Made by a program: the position numbers and the translations under genes. From Planctomycetota bacterium (lineage in GTDB: Bacteria; Planctomycetota; Phycisphaerae; WQYP01), in the NCBI GenBank assembly GCA_021852275.1, contig JAJZNX010000172.1, forward strand, positions 1 through 32,285: 32,285 nucleotides of DNA, in the 5' to 3' direction. The notes below the pieces were generated by a model that worked only from the letters and a program-made list of their open reading frames with translations, had not been told where the DNA came from and ran no database searches. Within the stretch, counting starts at the first letter, position 1; each line of letters opens with the position of its first letter. Of this stretch, positions 11,854 to 26,863 are shown in pieces.

Positions 11854-13830
11854 TTATCCAGTGTTGCCCGAGAAACTCAACGATTCTTCCAGCCAGTGAT
11901 CTGTAAGGGCTACCGTTTGGCGCTGCCGATGAGAACTTCGGCTGGCCCGGTGCTGCGCAACCGACACCAACCAGGCGGCCAGCCATCGCGGCTGAACGTG
12001 GCCGTTTCGAAAAACTTTTGCCAGCATTTTCGCGATGCGTGGCGTGTGTGTTTGCAGCAGGATGTCATCCAAGGCACAAAAATGAATGGACTCGCCAGGG
12101 TCGCCCTGCCGCCCCGCTCGTCCGGCCAATTGCCGGTCAATCCGTGCAGCATCATTGATATCCGCTGCTATTACGTACAATCCGCCCGCATTGCGTGCAG
12201 CGGCATCAAGGCGGATATCGGTACCGCGTCCGGCCATGTTGGTAGCCACAGTAATTTGACCGCTGCGTCCGGCTGCGGCGACAATATGGGCTTCCCGGGC
12301 ATGTTGAACGGCATTTAACACATGATGTGGCAGCCCCAGCTTGGTCAGTTGGGCTGACAATGTCTCGCTGGCCGCAACACTGCGGGTGCCTACCAGAATG
12401 GGCCGTTTCTGCTGATGCAGTTGTGCAATGATCGCAATCACCGCTTCGTATTTATTCTTCTCCGTGGCAAACACCCGCAGACCCTGGTGGCCGCGAATGC
12501 AGGGGCGGTGCGTAGGCAACACCACCAGCGGCCTTTGGTAAATATGCCACAGTTCGCCCTGTACTTCGGCCAAAGTTCCGGACATGCCGCTTAAATGCAT
12601 ATACAGACGGAAGAATCGCTGGTAGCTGATGCGTGCCAATGTTTCGCGCATAGCCTGAATTTCAACATTTTCCCGGGCCTGAATCACCTGGTGCAGGCCA
12701 TCATGCCACATACGGTCCGGCATAAGCCGCCCGGTAAATTCATCTACAATTACAACCCTGGAATTCTGGATGACATATTGTTTGCCCGGATGGTAAAAAT
12801 GGCGGGCCACCAGTACCTGCGTAAGAAGTTCCTCGCTACGATGTTGTGAATGCCATAAGCCATGAAGCCCTTGACGCTGGTTCGCCAACCGGGTGTGGCC
12901 GCTCCGGGTCAATTCTACTTGCTTGCGAGTGGCATGAGGGGTGTAGTCCAACCCCGGCTGAAAGTCTTCGGCCATGGCAATCGCCTGGCGAAAGCAATCC
13001 ATCTCATCACGATTGACTTGTCCGCCAGAAATGAGCAATGGAGTGATGGCTTCATCAATCAAAATAGAATCGGCCTCATCCACGATGGCAAAATAAAGGC
13101 CGCGCTGAACCAGTCGTCCGGCCAGGGTAAAGTCGATATCATGCAGCATAGCACCGGATCCACGGCCCGCCGGCCCCAACACCAGTTTGTCCCGCAGGAA
13201 ATCGAAGCAAACCTCCTTGTTGGTACAATACGTAACATCGGCGGCATAGGCCTGTCGTCGGCGCGGTCCATCCATGCCTTCGCCGATATAATCCGCGGTC
13301 AGACCGCAAAAGTGATATAGTTTGGCAAACTGCTCTGCATCCCGCTGTGCCAGGTAGTCGTTGACCGTAATGATATGGCAGCCGCGCCGCCGCCAGCCCG
13401 CCATAATCGCCGGTAGTGTGGCGGTGAGTGATTTTCCTTCACCGGTGGCCATTTCCACCAGCGATCCGTCAAAAAGAGCCAGCGCACCGGCCACTTGCAC
13501 CTCGTAGGGTTCTTCACCGGTGAGGCGCAATGCCGCTTCCCGAATCAAGGCTGCCGCATGGATGCGGTCTGCAGGCGTATCCCGATTGCGGCCGAATACT
13601 TCCGCCGTTTCCGTCAAACGTTGTTGCAGTTGTGATTCGGTAAGAACCTGCACAGCGGCTCGTAATTGATGGACCGCTGTAGCTTTCCGCATATAAATAT
13701 GCCGTCGCGGCACCATGCGCCGAACCATGCCGGCACCCTTATGCCAAAAAGCATCTAGGCCACGCGGAATTGGAGGAGGAGCCTCCAACCGCCCGAGCAT
13801 GCGCCAAAGATCACTGGGTATTGTTGTCAT
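11854..13830 (-). CDS. SecA-like preprotein translocase ATPase, C-terminally truncated paralogue
   Basis: EMATGEGKSLTATLPA, HIITVNDYLAQRDAE, IVDEADSILIDEAITPLLISGG, VIVDEFTGRLMPDRMWHDGLHQ, ATNMAGRGTDIRL, QLAGRAGRQGDPGES. The protein ends soon after the start of the two-helix-finger-like region. ATG 13830 has AGGA upstream. Confidence 0.92.
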   Translation of the reverse strand: MTTIPSDLWRMLGRLEAPPPIPRGLDAFWHKGAGMVRRMVPRRHIYMRKATAVHQLRAAVQVLTESQLQQRLTETAEVFGRNRDTPADRIHAAALIREAALRLTGEEPYEVQVAGALALFDGSLVEMATGEGKSLTATLPAIMAGWRRRGCHIITVNDYLAQRDAEQFAKLYHFCGLTADYIGEGMDGPRRRQAYAADVTYCTNKEVCFDFLRDKLVLGPAGRGSGAMLHDIDFTLAGRLVQRGLYFAIVDEADSILIDEAITPLLISGGQVNRDEMDCFRQAIAMAEDFQPGLDYTPHATRKQVELTRSGHTRLANQRQGLHGLWHSQHRSEELLTQVLVARHFYHPGKQYVIQNSRVVIVDEFTGRLMPDRMWHDGLHQVIQARENVEIQAMRETLARISYQRFFRLYMHLSGMSGTLAEVQGELWHIYQRPLVVLPTHRPCIRGHQGLRVFATEKNKYEAVIAIIAQLHQQKRPILVGTRSVAASETLSAQLTKLGLPHHVLNAVQHAREAHIVAAAGRSGQITVATNMAGRGTDIRLDAAARNAGGLYVIAADINDAARIDRQLAGRAGRQGDPGESIHFCALDDILLQTHTPRIAKMLAKVFRNGHVQPRWLAAWLVSVAQHRASRSSHRQRQTVALTDHWLEESLSFSGNTG

Positions 13831-13890
13831 TCTCACCATCCTGGGTGCAAATGTCCGGCTGGGGCACACTTTGGTCGCCCTGACATCATC

Positions 13891-16095
13891 CTATGCTCCG
13901 CCGTGAGATTCCAGGGCTCGCCGCAACATGTCCACTAATTGCATCGCCAGAGATTCATCGGGCAAAGCCAGGCGCATCTGCACACGTTGTCCCGGTAACC
14001 ACGCCACCGGTTCGCGGGGCTGTACTTCCAGCAGAAAAACCGGAGTGCCGGTTGCCAGCGGCTCATTCCGTTGCGGATTGGGAGCGAATGGTCCGCCACC
14101 AAGGTAACTTAAGGCGGCGGAAGGAAGAGTATTGCCACCGGCCGGAAATTCGCGGTGGATGACGGCGGGCACTACCGGACCTGGCCGCCCATAAACCCGT
14201 ATCTCGGTGTTGTGCGATCCGGCGCGAATGATGCGTCCTGCCCTGTTTTGGTCTGCCGCGCCGAAAACCAGCATGGTTTGCCAATTGGCAACGGTGCCCA
14301 CTTGCTGTCCTCTGTGCAAGTATGCTCCAATATGCAGGTGCAGGCTGGGGGCAATCCAAGTGCCGGATACGGGCGCCGAGATCGTCAATTCCGAGACTTT
14401 ATGGCGCAGCCGCACCAGCCTCTCGGCGATAGCTTGAATTTCATGGTGATAAATCTGGGCTTTGGCCGGACTGTGGTCCAGAGCCTTGCGCCAGCGAACT
14501 TTGGCCGCATCCCAGCGGCCGACCAATGCGGCCAGTTTGCTCTGCAGTGAAGGGTTTACCAGCCGGAGTAACACCGTGCCGTTTTTTCCGGCATGTACCA
14601 GCCGACTACTGGGAAGAAAGCTTTCCAGAAATCCGCTGGTCTGTACGTAAATGCGCCGTTGGATTTTGGCTCTGGTCACCCCTTCCACTCGGCAATGATT
14701 CGGCAGTGGAATCAACCCCACCGTTCCCGCCAGCAGCAGCACTGCGGCCAGACTTATCAGCACGGCCCGGGTCCGGTGCTGCAGCAGTTCCGGACTATCC
14801 AGCAGATACCATACCCCGCGCCCCAGCGGCACCAGCAACCACACTGCAATCCCCGCAGCGGCCATTACCGCCAGCAGCAGCATAATTTCCGGATGGTTGT
14901 GCAATTCACGCACCAGAAACAGCACGATCAGGCTGGAAACCAGTACGCGCACAATACCCGCCAGCAGCAGATAAACCACCAACCATACCTTCTGCCCAGG
15001 TGTATCCGCAGGATTCACCATGTGTTCCAGACGAAAAGCATATCGCTTGATCAGATATGTCGCATATTGAATGGACCTGCCGAACAGATTGGGTATTTCC
15101 AGCAGGTCCGACAAAATATAGTATCCATCGTAACGAAGAAACGGATTGGCATTAAAAATCACCGTGGTAACGCTGGCGATGAACATGAGATTGTATGCAA
15201 AATCATGCAGCGTGGATGCCGGGCTGCTTAAAGCCCAGACCATGGCGGCTGAGGCGGCCAGCGCAAATTCCACCCACATGCCGGCCGCACCTACGATGGC
15301 CCGCTGCCAGCGGTTTTTCAGCAACCACGCGCTGGAGGCATCCACGTAAGGAACCGGGGTAAAAACCAGCAGCATCAACCCTATTACATGCACCTCTCCC
15401 GAGGTGCCGTTTTGATGGCCGAATTTTTTACAGGCAATGGCGTGGCCCGATTCATGCACCAGTTTATCCAGCACAAAGGCTCCGTAGAGCAGTAGCCAAT
15501 TGTCCGGCCTTAAAATATGTGATGCGCTGGCCAACGCTGCCCCCAATCCAGGGCCGCGGTTTAAAAGGGTGTAAATCCCCGCAAGTATCACCGCCAGCCA
15601 CACCACCAAGCCGGGCCACGAAAATATCCAGCCGACTAAAAAGATACCTTTTTCTAAAATTGCGTCTGGGTCAAAAATTGGAATCCGCGGAAACAGCACG
15701 TTCATCAGTGCGTTCTGGAGTTCGCGCTTTTTACGCTTCTTGTAGCGTTCAAACATGCCGGCAGCATCCGGCGGCAACTCCGATTCCAGAAGGTTGTTGG
15801 AAGCTAGCTGTCCCAGTAAATCCAAGGCTTCGCCTTGCGTAGGGGCCTCATCTCCCAGCACCTTGCAGCAACTTTCCCATGCTTCCCGCAGCGTGCGCGT
15901 GCCATCCAGCAGACCCAGCAACTGGTAGCCCGGCTGGGGCAGACTAAACGCAGCATTATTGGCTTGATCCAGCACCACATAACGCCTTTGTCCGCGGTAC
16001 CTTTGCCGCACAATATGTACACTGCTGCGGATGCGCAGTTTTAAGTCGGCCACGCGATACCAGGATTCATGGAATGTCGGCAACACAGGTGACAT
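13891..16095 (-). CDS. PqqD-like / M50 (site-2-type) metallopeptidase / HlyD-like barrel-sandwich fusion membrane protein
   Basis: N-terminal PqqD-like segment (RRYVVLDQANNAAFSLPQPGYQLLGLLDGTRTLREAW); HESGH zinc motif at 15439-15456; NPFLRYDGYYILSD second motif; C-terminal adaptor-like segment (ISAPVSGTWIAPSLHLHIGAYLHRGQQVGTV). Confidence 0.85.
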   Translation of the reverse strand: MSPVLPTFHESWYRVADLKLRIRSSVHIVRQRYRGQRRYVVLDQANNAAFSLPQPGYQLLGLLDGTRTLREAWESCCKVLGDEAPTQGEALDLLGQLASNNLLESELPPDAAGMFERYKKRKKRELQNALMNVLFPRIPIFDPDAILEKGIFLVGWIFSWPGLVVWLAVILAGIYTLLNRGPGLGAALASASHILRPDNWLLLYGAFVLDKLVHESGHAIACKKFGHQNGTSGEVHVIGLMLLVFTPVPYVDASSAWLLKNRWQRAIVGAAGMWVEFALAASAAMVWALSSPASTLHDFAYNLMFIASVTTVIFNANPFLRYDGYYILSDLLEIPNLFGRSIQYATYLIKRYAFRLEHMVNPADTPGQKVWLVVYLLLAGIVRVLVSSLIVLFLVRELHNHPEIMLLLAVMAAAGIAVWLLVPLGRGVWYLLDSPELLQHRTRAVLISLAAVLLLAGTVGLIPLPNHCRVEGVTRAKIQRRIYVQTSGFLESFLPSSRLVHAGKNGTVLLRLVNPSLQSKLAALVGRWDAAKVRWRKALDHSPAKAQIYHHEIQAIAERLVRLRHKVSELTISAPVSGTWIAPSLHLHIGAYLHRGQQVGTVANWQTMLVFGAADQNRAGRIIRAGSHNTEIRVYGRPGPVVPAVIHREFPAGGNTLPSAALSYLGGGPFAPNPQRNEPLATGTPVFLLEVQPREPVAWLPGQRVQMRLALPDESLAMQLVDMLRRALESHGGA

Positions 16096-20236: not shown

Positions 20237-20338
20237 CAAAAGCCTTCGTGGAGGCGTGCAGGATAAAAAATAGAGATTTGCGAATTGTTTGCATCTTTAT
20301 TAAATGTTGCAGGTTTGTTATTTACAGAGCATAATATG

Positions 20339-21421
20339 ACACAATCATTCAATGGATTGGGTATGAACTTGGGCAATCTTTCGCGTTTGTCGAGAGCCAA
20401 AACCCGCTCGATTAGTCCGGAAAATTTTACCGGAGAAAAAGGTCAAGCGGGCATGTCCACGGATGGTCCAGCGGCTGGGGCAGCTCGCGACCTTGGCCAA
20501 GGCTGGAAGGTTTCACCGTATATCAAAATTGCCGCCGGTCAGACCTTCACGCTGGCGGAAATAAATGGTTCCGGCGCTATCCAGCAGATATGGATGACGC
20601 CGGGAGGTCACTGGCGATTTGCCATTTTGCGCATTTATTGGGATGACCAGACCGTGCCATCGGTGGAATGCCCGGTGGGCGACTTTTTTGCCTGCGGTTG
20701 GAATCGTTTTGCACCGCTAACTTCGTTGCCTATCTGTGTCAACCCCGGCAGCGCGCTGAATTGTTACTGGGAAATGCCTTTTCGTCGCAAGTGCCGTATG
20801 ACTATGACCAATATCGCTGACACGGAAATGGTCTTGTATTATCAGATCAACTATACGCTTACGGATGTTCCGGAGGACGCGGCCTATTTTCATGCGCAGT
20901 TCCGACGGGTCAATCCGCTTCCTTACAAGCAGGTGTACACCATTTTGGATGGTGTGATGGGGCGAGGGCAATACGTAGGTACCTATATGGCCTGGGGTGT
21001 CAACAACAATGGCTGGTGGGGTGAAGGCGAAATCAAATTTTACATGGATGGCGATAGGGAGTTTCCCACCATTTGTGGCACTGGAACGGAGGATTATTTC
21101 TGCGGCAGTTACAATTTTGAAAATCAGGTGACGCATCAATATCAGGAATTCAGCACGCCTTATGCGGGACTATCGCAAGTGTTAAGGCCCAACGGTCTGT
21201 ATGAATCGCAGCAGCGATTTGGTCTTTATCGGTGGCACATTATGGATCCGGTGCGTTTTGAACAAAATCTGCGCATAACCATTCAGGCTTTGGGGTGGCG
21301 ATCTGGCGGTCGCTATTTACCGTTGAAGGATGATATTGCATCTGTGGCATACTGGTATCAGACTTTGCCGACGGCACCTTTTCCATTGTTGCCGGACCGT
21401 GATGGCCTGGAAATAAATTAA
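20339..21421 (+). CDS. DUF2961 / GH172-family protein
   Basis: ARTRSISPENFTGEKG-like N-terminus (AKTRSISPENFTGEKGQAGM), WWGEGEIKFYMDGDREFPTICGTGTEDYFCGSYNF. The ORF may start upstream at 20285. Confidence 0.88.
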   Translation, partial: TQSFNGLGMNLGNLSRLSRAKTRSISPENFTGEKGQAGMSTDGPAAGAARDLGQGWKVSPYIKIAAGQTFTLAEINGSGAIQQIWMTPGGHWRFAILRIYWDDQTVPSVECPVGDFFACGWNRFAPLTSLPICVNPGSALNCYWEMPFRRKCRMTMTNIADTEMVLYYQINYTLTDVPEDAAYFHAQFRRVNPLPYKQVYTILDGVMGRGQYVGTYMAWGVNNNGWWGEGEIKFYMDGDREFPTICGTGTEDYFCGSYNFENQVTHQYQEFSTPYAGLSQVLRPNGLYESQQRFGLYRWHIMDPVRFEQNLRITIQALGWRSGGRYLPLKDDIASVAYWYQTLPTAPFPLLPDRDGLEIN

Positions 21422-21450
21422 TTTTGACAACGCAAAATCTGGAGTTAGAA

Positions 21451-24066
21451 ATGACGGTTAAATCAACCGTGTGGCCCATACTCAAATCGTACCCACAAAG
21501 CCACTTGTCACATGTTGCCATGCCCGTCGGGGGCATTGGAACAGGAACCATTTCCATCGGTGGACGAGGCAACCTGCGCGATTGGGAAATATGCAATCGT
21601 TCGGCCAAAGGTTTTGATCTTGTGCAGGGCAGACAGGCCGGCTGTTTTTTTGCTCTGTGGACAAAGGATTCGTCCGGGAAAACCGTGACGCGTGCGCTGG
21701 AAGGCATCATAGGGTCGGATCAATATGATGGAAAAGGGCACGGAGCCTGGGCGGTCAATGCTTCGCTGCCGCGATTCCGTAAATGTGAGTTTCATGCGGC
21801 GTACCCGCTGGCGCAGGTGGTTATGTCCGATCCGGACGTTCCATTGCATGTGCGGCTGGAAACGTTCAATCCCCTGATTCCGGCAGATGTTGACTCCAGT
21901 GGCATTCCGGTAATGGTGTTGCGTTACGTGCTGACAAATCCATCTTCAAAGCCGGTGGCGGCATCTGTATGCGGTTCGCTGCCTAATTTTATTGGAGCCG
22001 ATGGCCGAGCGACATCGAACAAACAATTCGAAGGTTTTGACAGTTACGATTCTCAAGCCCGCGAAAACCGGAACGTCTTTAGAAAAGACTCGAAGCTGCA
22101 GGGGCTTTACATGTATTCCGACGGCCTGGAAAAAACCGCGTCGCAATGGGGCAGTCTGGCTTTGGCCACAACAGCCAGGGGCCAGGTCACCTGGCGGGAG
22201 GCATGGGGTAAGCTGGATTGGGGTAACAGCCTGCTTGATTTCTGGGATGATTTTTCCAGTGATGGAAAGCTGGATGCCCGGCCAGCCGATGGGCAGCAGG
22301 ATCCGCGAGCGTCGCTGGCGGTGTCGGTGCAGGTTCCTCCGAAAGCAAGTAAAAGTGTAACCTTTATCATCGCCTGGCATTTTCCAAATCGCAACGGCTG
22401 GGCCAAGCTGCCGGATGCCGGGACTGCGGCAACAGATTCTGCTGCTCCACAAAATCCGATAGCGGAAGAAGTTGGTAATTACTATTGCACCCAGTATGCG
22501 GATGCCTGGGATGTGGCTGTACGCACAGCCGGAGATTTGCCGAGATTAGAATCTAAAACAGTTGAGTTTGTGCAGGCTTTTTGTCGCAGCGACCTGCCGG
22601 ATGTGGTGAAGGAAGCGGCTCTATTTAATTTAAGTACGCTGCGCACGGAAACCTGCTTTCGCACCGCGGACGGACGGTTTTTTGGCTGGGAAGGGTGCCA
22701 TGATCTGGGCGGATGTTGTCATGGATCGTGCACGCATGTATGGAATTATGAGCATACCACAGCCTTTGTTTTTGGCCAGTTGGCCAAGTCGATGCGAGAT
22801 ACAGACTTTAATTGTGCCACCAGTGATACAGGAATGATGAGTTTTCGAGTGGGATTGCCCGTACTTAGCCAGGGGCGCGAGTGGAAGGGTGCTGCCGCAG
22901 ACGGCCAAATGGGCACTTTGATGCGGCTGTACCGGGAATGGCAGCTTTCTGGAGATGATGAGTTCCTGAAAAAATGCTGGCCCAGCGCCCGTAAATCGAT
23001 GGAGTTCTGCTGGTTGGAACATGGATGGGATGGTGATTGCGACGGTGTAATGGAGGGATCGCAACACAATACCATGGATGTGGAATATTTTGGTCCGAAT
23101 CCGGAAGTGGGTTTCTGGTATCTGGGCGCATTGCGGGCTGTGGAGGAGATGGCCCGGCATGTTGGCGAAGAGTCCTTTGCGAAAAAATGCCAAGCTCTTA
23201 TTGTTCGCGGATCCCAATGGATGGATTCCAACCTTTTCAATGGGGAATATTATGAACAACGTATTGTGCCGCCGGGAGATGAGTCGGCGATAAATCCAGC
23301 ATTAAGATGGAATTTGGGGCCAAGAGATCTGCGGAATCCTACACTTCAGATTGGTGCGGGTTGTCTGGCGGATCAATTGGTGGGGCAGACAATGGCCCAT
23401 GTTTTGGGGCTGGGCGATCTTGCTGATCGCCAGCATCTTAAAAAGACGCTCCAGTCCCTGATGAAATATAACTTCAGGTCCTCCATGTTTGGTCATTTCA
23501 ATCATATGCGAACCTACACTCTGAATGAAGAAGGGGGAATGCTGGTATGCACGTATCCACGGGGGCAGAGACCTCAATTTCCTTTTCCCTATGCCAATGA
23601 GGTATGGAGCGGCTTTGAATATGCCGTTGCAACGGAACTCATCTATGCCGGTCGCCTCGCCGATGCATTGAAAATTGTGAAAACCGTCCGCGCCCGGCAC
23701 GATGGCCGAAAACGTTCTCCCTTTGACGAACCGGAATGCGGACATCATTACGTGCGGCCGATGGCGGCATGGGGAACGCTGTTGGCCATTACTGGCTTTC
23801 GTTATTCTGCCGTAACCGGGCACATCGTTTTTAATCTGCCGGTGAAAAATTCAACGACCTGGTTCTGGTCCACCGGATATGCCTGGGGTACCGTCGTGAT
23901 CAGGAAAAAGACGGGTGGCTTAGCCGAGGTCACCTTGTCCGTTTTGGGAGGCACGGTGAAGCTAAAAACGGTGGAACTGGCCACCTTTGGGAAAGTCGAC
24001 CTGGGGTCGGAGCGGATCATCGGTTCGCACAACCCGTTGCGGCTGAAGATACTTCGGCAGATTTAA
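21451..24066 (+). CDS. GH116-family glycoside hydrolase (non-lysosomal glucosylceramidase/beta-glucosidase-like)
   Basis: MPVGGIGTGTISIGGRGNLRDWEI, CCHGSCTHVWNYEHTTAFVF, EGSQHNTMDVEYFGPNPEVGFWYLGALRA, YANEVWSGFEYAVA. GGAG precedes the ATG at 21451. Confidence 0.9.
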   Translation: MTVKSTVWPILKSYPQSHLSHVAMPVGGIGTGTISIGGRGNLRDWEICNRSAKGFDLVQGRQAGCFFALWTKDSSGKTVTRALEGIIGSDQYDGKGHGAWAVNASLPRFRKCEFHAAYPLAQVVMSDPDVPLHVRLETFNPLIPADVDSSGIPVMVLRYVLTNPSSKPVAASVCGSLPNFIGADGRATSNKQFEGFDSYDSQARENRNVFRKDSKLQGLYMYSDGLEKTASQWGSLALATTARGQVTWREAWGKLDWGNSLLDFWDDFSSDGKLDARPADGQQDPRASLAVSVQVPPKASKSVTFIIAWHFPNRNGWAKLPDAGTAATDSAAPQNPIAEEVGNYYCTQYADAWDVAVRTAGDLPRLESKTVEFVQAFCRSDLPDVVKEAALFNLSTLRTETCFRTADGRFFGWEGCHDLGGCCHGSCTHVWNYEHTTAFVFGQLAKSMRDTDFNCATSDTGMMSFRVGLPVLSQGREWKGAAADGQMGTLMRLYREWQLSGDDEFLKKCWPSARKSMEFCWLEHGWDGDCDGVMEGSQHNTMDVEYFGPNPEVGFWYLGALRAVEEMARHVGEESFAKKCQALIVRGSQWMDSNLFNGEYYEQRIVPPGDESAINPALRWNLGPRDLRNPTLQIGAGCLADQLVGQTMAHVLGLGDLADRQHLKKTLQSLMKYNFRSSMFGHFNHMRTYTLNEEGGMLVCTYPRGQRPQFPFPYANEVWSGFEYAVATELIYAGRLADALKIVKTVRARHDGRKRSPFDEPECGHHYVRPMAAWGTLLAITGFRYSAVTGHIVFNLPVKNSTTWFWSTGYAWGTVVIRKKTGGLAEVTLSVLGGTVKLKTVELATFGKVDLGSERIIGSHNPLRLKILRQI

Positions 24067-24946: not shown

Positions 24947-26736
24947 TTATTCGCCGGGTTCGAGTACGGCCATAAATGCTTCTTGGGGGATCTCTACCCG
25001 GCCAACCTGCTTCATGCGCTTCTTGCCTTCTTTCTGTTTTTCCAGCAACTTGCGTTTTCGGCTCACATCGCCGCCGTAGCATTTAGCCGTAACGTTTTTG
25101 CGCATGGCACTGATAGTTTCACGGGCAATCACCCGCGAGCCGATGGCTGCCTGCAGGGGAACCTCAAACAGGTGCCGGCCGATTTCAGCCTTGAGCTTTC
25201 GGATGATAGCCCGGCCGCGGCTTTCAGCTTTGGATTTGTGAACAATCAAACTCAGCGCTCCGATGGCCTGGCCGTTGACGAGAATATCCATACGTACTAG
25301 ATCATCAGCTTTGAATCCCAGAAAATTGTAATCCAGAGTGCCGTAGCCGCGGGTAGCAGTTTTCAACCGGTCGAAAAAATCAAAAATAACTTCTGCCAGC
25401 GGCAGGTCATATTCGAGAATCACACGTTGCGGTCCAATATATTCCGTCTTGCGGTAAATGCCCCGACGGTCCTGGCAGAGCTTGGAAATATCCCCGATAT
25501 TTTCTCCGGGAATAATGATATTGGCACGAATCATCGGCTCGCGAATTTCCTTGAGATTGCTCGGATCAGGCAGTTCGGAGGCGCTGTCAATGGTTTTAAC
25601 CGTATCGTCGTTGAGCACCACTTCATACGGCACCGTGGGGGCGGTTTGCACCACCTGTACTTTTTGTTCGCGTTCCAGCCGTTCCTGCACAATTTCCATG
25701 TGCAGCAATCCCAGAAAACCACAACGGAAACCAAAGCCCAAAGCATCTGAATTTTCAGGCTCAAATGTGAACGAGGAATCATTTAGCCGCAGTCGTTCCA
25801 GGGCTTCCCGCAGTTGAGTGTATTGTGTATCAGGGCCTGGATAAAAATCACAGTAAACCATTTGTTTTGGGGGGGGCGGTATCCGGCGAGCGGTTCTACC
25901 GCCGGGTTGTTGACATCCGTAACCGTATCGCCAATGGTAACATCGCCGAGCGCTTTGATGTTGGCGACGAAAAAACCGACTTCGCCGGCGGCCAGGGCAG
26001 GCACCGCTGTGGTCTTGGGCGCAAACTTTCCCATGGCGGTTATCTGGTAAACACGTTGCTGACCCATCATGCGAATTTTCTGACCCATGCTGATGCGGCC
26101 ATTCATAACGCGGACGTAAACAATGACTCCACGGTACTCATCATATTTGCTGTCAAAAATCAGGGCTTGCAGCGGCAGGCTGGCATCGCCCTTGGGGCCT
26201 GGCAACTTAAGACAGATGGCTCGAAAAAGATCGTCGATACCCAGGCCGCTTTTGGCGGAAATACGCACGCAGGCAAGAGCATCTATCCCCAGTACCTGCT
26301 CCATTTCTTCCGCTACTTCATCGGGTCGGGCACTGGGCAGATCAATTTTGTTGATCACGGGAATGATTTCCAGGCCAGCTTCAATAGCTGCGTAGGCATT
26401 GGCTACTGTTTGGGCCTGTACGCCCTGCGTGGCATCTACCACCAGCAAAGCCCCTTCGCAAGCCTGCAAGGCTTTGGCCACTTCATAATGGAAATCGACG
26501 TGACCAGGGGTATCAATCAGATTGAGCATGTAATCTTCACCATCAAGTTGATACCGCACTGAGACTGCACTGGCTTTGATGGTGATGCCTCGTTCGCGTT
26601 CCAGGTCCATATCATCAAGGAATTGTGCCTGCATTTCGCGTTCGGTGATGGCTCCGGATCGTTCCAGAATCCGGTCCGCCAAGGTGGATTTACCATGGTC
26701 GATGTGAGCAATGATGCAAAAGTTACGTATTTTCAT
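24947..26736 (-). pseudogene. lepA: Elongation factor 4 (LepA), reading frame interrupted by an apparent 1-nt deletion at 25869-25876
   Basis: N-terminal part [24 protein letters not shown] to PLAGYRPP is in one frame; C-terminal part [15 protein letters not shown] to MKQVGRVEIPQEAFMAVL is in another. The total length of 1790 nt is one nt short of 597 codons. May be a sequencing error rather than a true pseudogene. Confidence 0.93.
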
Positions 26737-26863
26737 TGAAGATTCAACAGCCTTGCTTCGGGAATAACCAAAAGAATGATAACCGATTTTACCCAATAGC
26801 GCAAGCGAAAGAGCGGCCGGGCTTACAGGCTTACAGGTGGGGCCAAGCCTGCCATCTCGTGGC

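Follow-up and report, generated by a model that had tools for sequence, protein, structure and literature searches.

A 32,285-nucleotide (nt) stretch of the genome of a Planctomycetota bacterium (Phycisphaerae; GenBank assembly GCA_021852275.1, contig JAJZNX010000172.1, positions 1 to 32,285), referred to in full as the window, carries two neighbouring genes for a PqqD-like/M50/HlyD-adaptor fusion protein (gene A) and a truncated SecA (gene B; Table 1), which are considered here as a likely part of a module exporting large surface proteins with an N-terminal LEPR-XLL domain. The genome is a draft (82% complete, 214 contigs). Both frames are open over the listed coordinates on the same strand, in keeping with the two-gene unit put forward in a preliminary description of this DNA. 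The spacing of about 60 nt given there applies if gene B starts at an ATG at 13830 (658 amino acids [aa]; 60 nt after A), which is preceded by an AGGA/GGTGAG-like stretch, while a GTG start at 13869 reduces it to 21 nt. An nfo-type gene lies upstream in divergent orientation and thiG lies downstream in the opposite direction, and because both flanks run the opposite way, A and B stand alone in the window. Family scans of the window genes adjoining the pair found no other transport gene, as had been remarked beforehand. The closest named relatives of A occur in Phycisphaerae and other Planctomycetota. In the nearest of these, the Planctomycetota isolate ZJ4.bin39 (L103:1671-5853), A and B are each split into two frames, reflecting either sequencing errors or decay.

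Domain architecture of the two proteins

The three-part fusion first read from the letters of gene A was confirmed by domain matches amongst its homologues, a profile search, and a predicted model. Peptidase_M50 is slightly below the cut-off in the window protein and is matched by 47 of 50 homologues; the Pfam PqqD match is weak (residues 39–103, E = 0.0037) and is shared by 37 of the 50 (best E = 1.3e-7); and HlyD_3 is matched by 31. Compared with solved structures, a profile of the family recovered PqqD (3g2b, E = 8e-4), HlyD/MexA-type adaptors, and the M50 protein MJ0392. All three expected parts are present in the AlphaFold model (mean predicted local distance difference test [pLDDT] score, 90), with a small N-terminal domain of beta-beta-beta-alpha-alpha-alpha order, a helical part in the membrane, and then an adaptor bearing an alpha hairpin; the adaptor matches MexA/AcrA in Foldseek (E ~1e-11). 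The protease is probably active, because the key residues of the HExxH and NxNPxxRxDGYY motifs are invariant in 50/50 homologues.

Gene B encodes a secondary SecA_DEAD protein containing SecA_DEAD, the preprotein cross-linking domain, and the second nucleotide-binding domain; a domain scan did not find SecA_SW. When aligned with this genome’s canonical SecA, B ends ~35 residues into the scaffold helix, without the wing, the two-helix finger, and the C-terminal linker, so that the initial reading of a truncated SecA is borne out, with the ATPase core whole. As this stop matches the short form of relatives, B is, judged from the alignment, that short form and not a broken copy. Within a SecA tree, B fell in a set of 23 short SecA rows, with the seven valid canonical rows forming their own group (100/100; three further ‘canonical’ rows, L056, L061, and L062, were wrong open reading frames [ORFs] and were ignored). 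Nearly all copies of the short SecA keep the ATPase motifs. The canonical secA sought in view of the preliminary description is present at full length elsewhere in the genome (contig C116), and B, not being the sole secA, is therefore not the housekeeping motor. The C116 protein (L002, G000:C116) is unusually long (>1215 aa) with inserted segments, in agreement with the planctomycete SecA_SW rearrangements described by Kamneva, Poudel & Ward (2015; PMC4452313).

Table 1. Position and supporting evidence for genes A and B and their predicted domains and motifs in the window.
Feature	Coordinates	Strand	Description or evidence
Gene A	13891..16095	-	734 aa; PqqD-like + M50 + HlyD-adaptor fusion
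PqqD-like winged-helix domain, A residues ~16-105	15781..16050	-	Possible leader/tag recognition; Pfam, profile match, predicted model
M50 (site-2 protease type) membrane core, A residues ~140-435	14791..15678	-	Peptidase_M50, E 4.3e-6; helices in predicted model
HExxH zinc site, H214, E215, H218	15442..15456	-	Invariant in 50/50 homologues
NxNPxxRYDGYY motif, third zinc ligand region, D323	15118..15153	-	N, NP, D, G, Y, Y invariant in 50/50 homologues
HlyD/MexA-type adaptor with alpha hairpin, A residues ~463-715	13951..14709	-	Foldseek MexA/AcrA; HlyD_3
Gene B	11854..13869	-	671 aa from GTG 13869; secondary SecA_DEAD protein
Walker A GEGKS, B residues 143-147	13429..13443	-	Alignment with canonical SecA
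Walker B DEAD, B residues 264-267	13069..13080	-	Alignment with canonical SecA
Preprotein cross-linking domain, B residues 290-396	12682..13002	-	SecA_PP_bind, E 1.8e-23
Second nucleotide-binding domain, B residues 456-617	12019..12504	-	TNMAGRGTD and GRAGRQGD motifs
Scaffold-helix remnant (AQ...R...)	11875..11973	-	Alignment; SecA_SW not found

Conservation of the module and its association with LEPR-XLL proteins

A collection-wide scan identified 80 loci with A from the Planctomycetota, Verrucomicrobiota, Nitrospirota, Proteobacteria, Fibrobacterota, and others. Many of these contigs are cut and the counts of partner genes are lower bounds. B adjoins A in 69/80 loci across many phyla, an arrangement far beyond chance. 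The earlier impression that similar pairs occur in other planctomycetes thus extends well past that phylum, and the neighbourhood is conserved amongst related genomes. A gene combining GAF and HlyD domains (GAF-HlyD) was present in 70 of the 80 loci, a separate HlyD adaptor in 52, and an outer-membrane channel (OEP) and DUF3467 in 18 each. Amongst 199 Planctomycetota genomes, A occurred in 46 and the short SecA in 29, with 28 of these 29 also A-positive (p = 7e-21). No regular ABC transporter accompanies the module (ABC_tran domain in just 1 of 98 other neighbours, with no family recurring often), nor was SecY amongst the neighbour families listed for related loci. Further components in this genome were located on contig C137, with a second A (62–63% identical), an HlyD adaptor (292 bits), and the first part of a GAF-HlyD gene (93 bits), which is broken off by the contig end. 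GAF-HlyD is absent from the window and an OEP was found in neither the window nor C137.

The DUF3467 genes beside the module encode proteins of ~110 aa (e.g., L098:6271-7004, L094:7122-7511, L109:7574-7927) with a predicted beta-beta-beta-alpha fold (pLDDT, 84). A role as a SecB-like chaperone was dropped, as Foldseek returned no significant match in the PDB and SecB was outside the best 50. Genome G030 has a short SecA beside A (L098:11157-13109) that has lost Walker A and Walker B with the frame intact and is likely ATPase-dead; its module is otherwise complete and includes two copies of DUF3467, and an RTX protein of 2045 aa is encoded next to it. Amongst the module neighbours in loci L103–L182, two carry SapC (PF07277) and three carry GGDEF/EAL domains, perhaps related to a surface layer or to the control of adhesins.

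RTX, Ig, cadherin, and lectin-like repeats occur in large proteins encoded next to the module, several of which start with LEPR-XLL (NCBIfam NF012209), a short N-terminal domain; RTX giants were directly upstream of the module in 9/80 loci. Within the Planctomycetota, 15 of the 16 genomes with LEPR-XLL were A-positive compared to 46/199 overall (p = 5e-10; with each family counted as a single row, p = 4e-6). The same association was observed for the Gammaproteobacteria (19/23 compared to 36/274 overall, p = 6.5e-16; excluding two genomes known beforehand, p = 2.6e-14). LEPR-XLL proteins, many of 8,000–14,000 aa, occurred in 37 of the 44 module genomes from other phyla and in none of 14 control genomes. 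The two are also physically close, with LEPR-XLL genes 1–4 kb from A in six genomes (G323, G448, G231, G432, G173, G160). A check of the Verrucomicrobiota that started from LEPR-XLL genes, and not from A, covered eleven genomes not previously known as A-positive; in three of these (G559, G580, G605) the whole module was directly upstream of the LEPR-XLL gene, in the order OEP, HlyD adaptor, GAF-HlyD, A, and B, with B closest to the LEPR-XLL gene. Five LEPR-XLL matches occur in the genome studied here; one lies on contig C74, and the other four fall within 10 kb of each other on contig C96, their tags including FEALEPRILLSS and FEVLEPRLLLSG.

The four C96 proteins (L213, G000:C96:1-12000) are encoded one after another by minus-strand genes (391, 1378, 778, and 388 aa) and form a surface-protein cluster, two of them containing Kelch or propeller-like repeats. 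The planctomycete motif Planc_extracel (PF07595) gave weak matches in 16 genomes with no clear tie to A.

A candidate export route and its alternatives

A and B are part of the known secondary-SecA_DEAD/type-I-like module. Because the module is associated with LEPR-XLL genes both by co-occurrence and by adjacency, it probably exports proteins with an N-terminal LEPR-XLL domain, typically large to giant surface repeat proteins. In such a module, the PqqD-like domain of A would bind the LEPR-XLL tag, the M50 site would cut within the membrane, either in the tag or close to it, and the membrane part of A may act as the channel. The truncated SecA, without the wing and finger that engage SecYEG, could replace an ABC ATPase by pushing or unfolding the chain, and a periplasmic conduit to a TolC-like channel would consist of the HlyD parts of A together with the GAF-HlyD protein and the stand-alone HlyD adaptor. 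For the genome of the window these parts are split, with A and B in the window, the second A, HlyD adaptor, and GAF-HlyD start on C137, and the LEPR-XLL proteins on C96 and C74.

Several observations weigh against the export of LEPR-XLL proteins by this module. No LEPR-XLL match was found for 31 of the 46 A-positive planctomycetes, mainly those with more distant A proteins; these (e.g., family f30) perhaps lack a match because the tags vary (e.g., LESRAMM, LEPRVVL). A few LEPR-XLL-positive genomes are without A (e.g., G165, G318, G455), the pair in the window has no LEPR-XLL gene alongside, and the co-occurrence can partly reflect shared ancestry. Further, B is missing from four genomes positive for both A and LEPR-XLL (G231, G448, G432, G155), and the B of G030 is without Walker A and B. 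As B is absent or Walker-less in some module genomes, it cannot be the sole engine everywhere, which weakens the idea of B as the only engine; either the cell’s own SecA can substitute for it, or B has an assisting role and does not power the transport.

The dispensability of B in some module genomes that do have a canonical SecA also favours a different division of labour, in which LEPR-XLL proteins cross the inner membrane via the standard SecYEG/SecA route or a standard ABC type I exporter, with A and B acting afterwards or alongside, for example in quality control, in tag cleavage, or in transit across the periplasm and outer membrane. The RTX repeats carried by many of the giants, usual substrates of ABC type I systems, and the few LEPR-XLL-positive genomes without A would fit such an arrangement. 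It is nonetheless unlikely, in that no ABC exporter recurs beside the module and the short SecA is tied to A, with its ATPase motifs kept in nearly all copies. The LEPR-XLL N-termini also lack a long hydrophobic core (best 15-residue mean hydropathy, 0.7–1.6), a weak test that was not retained as proof against Sec signals, since these values are too near the 1.73 of one control adaptor.

The planctomycete genomes with A and without a LEPR-XLL match, together with the GAF domains of the partner gene, would be expected if A and B formed a general envelope or stress complex with GAF as a sensor, LEPR-XLL proteins being merely frequent in the same surface-protein-rich lineages. This is highly improbable given the strong co-occurrence in two separate groups and the LEPR-XLL or RTX giants that adjoin the module in several phyla, also when the search started from the LEPR-XLL gene.

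PqqD-like domains bind the leader peptides of ribosomally synthesised and post-translationally modified peptides (RiPPs), and the curated protease models nearest to A are those of RiPP proteases (daptide NF041824, E = 1e-40; YydH/LiaK), under their cut-offs. A could then bind the leader of a small modified peptide through PqqD, cleave it, and export the product with B. When ORFs from the neighbourhoods were clustered, no conserved precursor emerged, and no modifying enzyme recurs; the search for small leader-peptide ORFs near homologous loci, proposed beforehand as a check, thus recovered none that is conserved, the sole recurring small gene being DUF3467, a predicted folded domain. A RiPP-like route accordingly has very little likelihood. 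Of the dedicated export or peptide-processing system that the preliminary description had envisaged, the two-gene unit stands, with large to giant LEPR-XLL/RTX/Ig-repeat surface proteins as the suggested substrates, and the peptide-processing reading is not supported.

Relation to known systems and other features of the window

Loci of this family were described by Kamneva, Poudel & Ward (2015; PMC4452313) from the Planctomycetes, Verrucomicrobia, Proteobacteria, and Nitrospirae as a ‘secondary SecA_DEAD’ without SecA_SW, encoded with M50/HlyD, GAF/HlyD, HlyD/biotin-lipoyl, and sometimes OEP proteins; the operon META1p2402-2399 of Methylorubrum/Methylobacterium extorquens is amongst them. The available part of that paper proposes the SecA part as a replacement for the ABC ATPase and the M50 protein as a possible pore, calls the role of the locus ‘completely unknown’, and does not mention a PqqD domain, DUF3467, or LEPR-XLL proteins. 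The genome of the window agrees with the locus as it appears there in having, besides canonical SecA, an extra SecA_DEAD protein without SecA_SW that adjoins an M50/HlyD gene and groups with short SecA proteins apart from canonical SecA. An HlyD/biotin-lipoyl adaptor is present as well, on C137 beside the second A and not in the window, where, unlike in the published locus, just two genes are found together.

Resemblance to type I secretion (HlyB-HlyD-TolC) lies in the HlyD-type adaptor of A, the TolC-like OEP in part of the related loci, and the RTX or repeat giants as neighbours; the module differs in that the ABC transporter is replaced by a SecA-like ATPase plus a membrane protease and in that the suspected signal is N-terminal. 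No HlyB-type ABC transporter was found amongst the window genes scanned, and no search was made elsewhere in the genome. As in the accessory Sec systems (SecA2-only, SecA2-SecY2), a second SecA homologue would serve a subset of substrates, but B has no wing, finger, or C-terminal linker, its neighbourhood showed no second SecY, and its partners are HlyD proteins. The daptide and YydH/LiaK proteases share the M50 core, and the daptide model covers most of the N-terminal region of A (from residue 34). In contrast to these RiPP proteases, A carries an HlyD adaptor, has no peptide pathway genes nearby, and scores far below the curated cut-offs (139.7 compared to 300 bits for daptide and 28.3 compared to 225 bits for epipeptide M50 proteases). 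A pathway that is neither type I nor accessory Sec is a tentative possibility, a little short of evenly balanced, in which A recognises and cleaves the LEPR-XLL tag and a finger-less SecA (or the cell’s SecA where this is missing) drives the export of giants of up to ~20,000 residues by way of HlyD adaptors and a TolC-like channel, with no ABC transporter.

The secretion locus has been known since 2015 without a function, and the link to LEPR-XLL, so far just a domain name, supplies a candidate substrate. LEPR-XLL proteins are amongst the longest bacterial proteins, and the association joins the question of their export to that of the function of the locus, suggesting further that SecA may be reusable as an export motor minus the parts that engage SecYEG. 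Neither an account of LEPR-XLL protein export nor PqqD, HlyD, and M50 together was found in the literature searched, which was open-licence only, such that either may be known elsewhere; two papers in it use the term LEPR-XLL, neither of them dealing with export. Relative to that literature, the PqqD domain in the locus and, above all, the LEPR-XLL link are new; the locus family itself is already published.

Elsewhere in the window, lepA (24947-26796, minus strand) is present as two overlapping ORFs in different frames, encoding the GTPase part (25783-26796) and the LepA C-terminus (24947-25861), due to a frameshift that is real or from the assembly. On the plus strand (20285-24066), a Zn-dependent dehydrogenase, a DUF2961 protein, and a GH116-type glycosidase (DUF608) follow one another in a small sugar-use operon.

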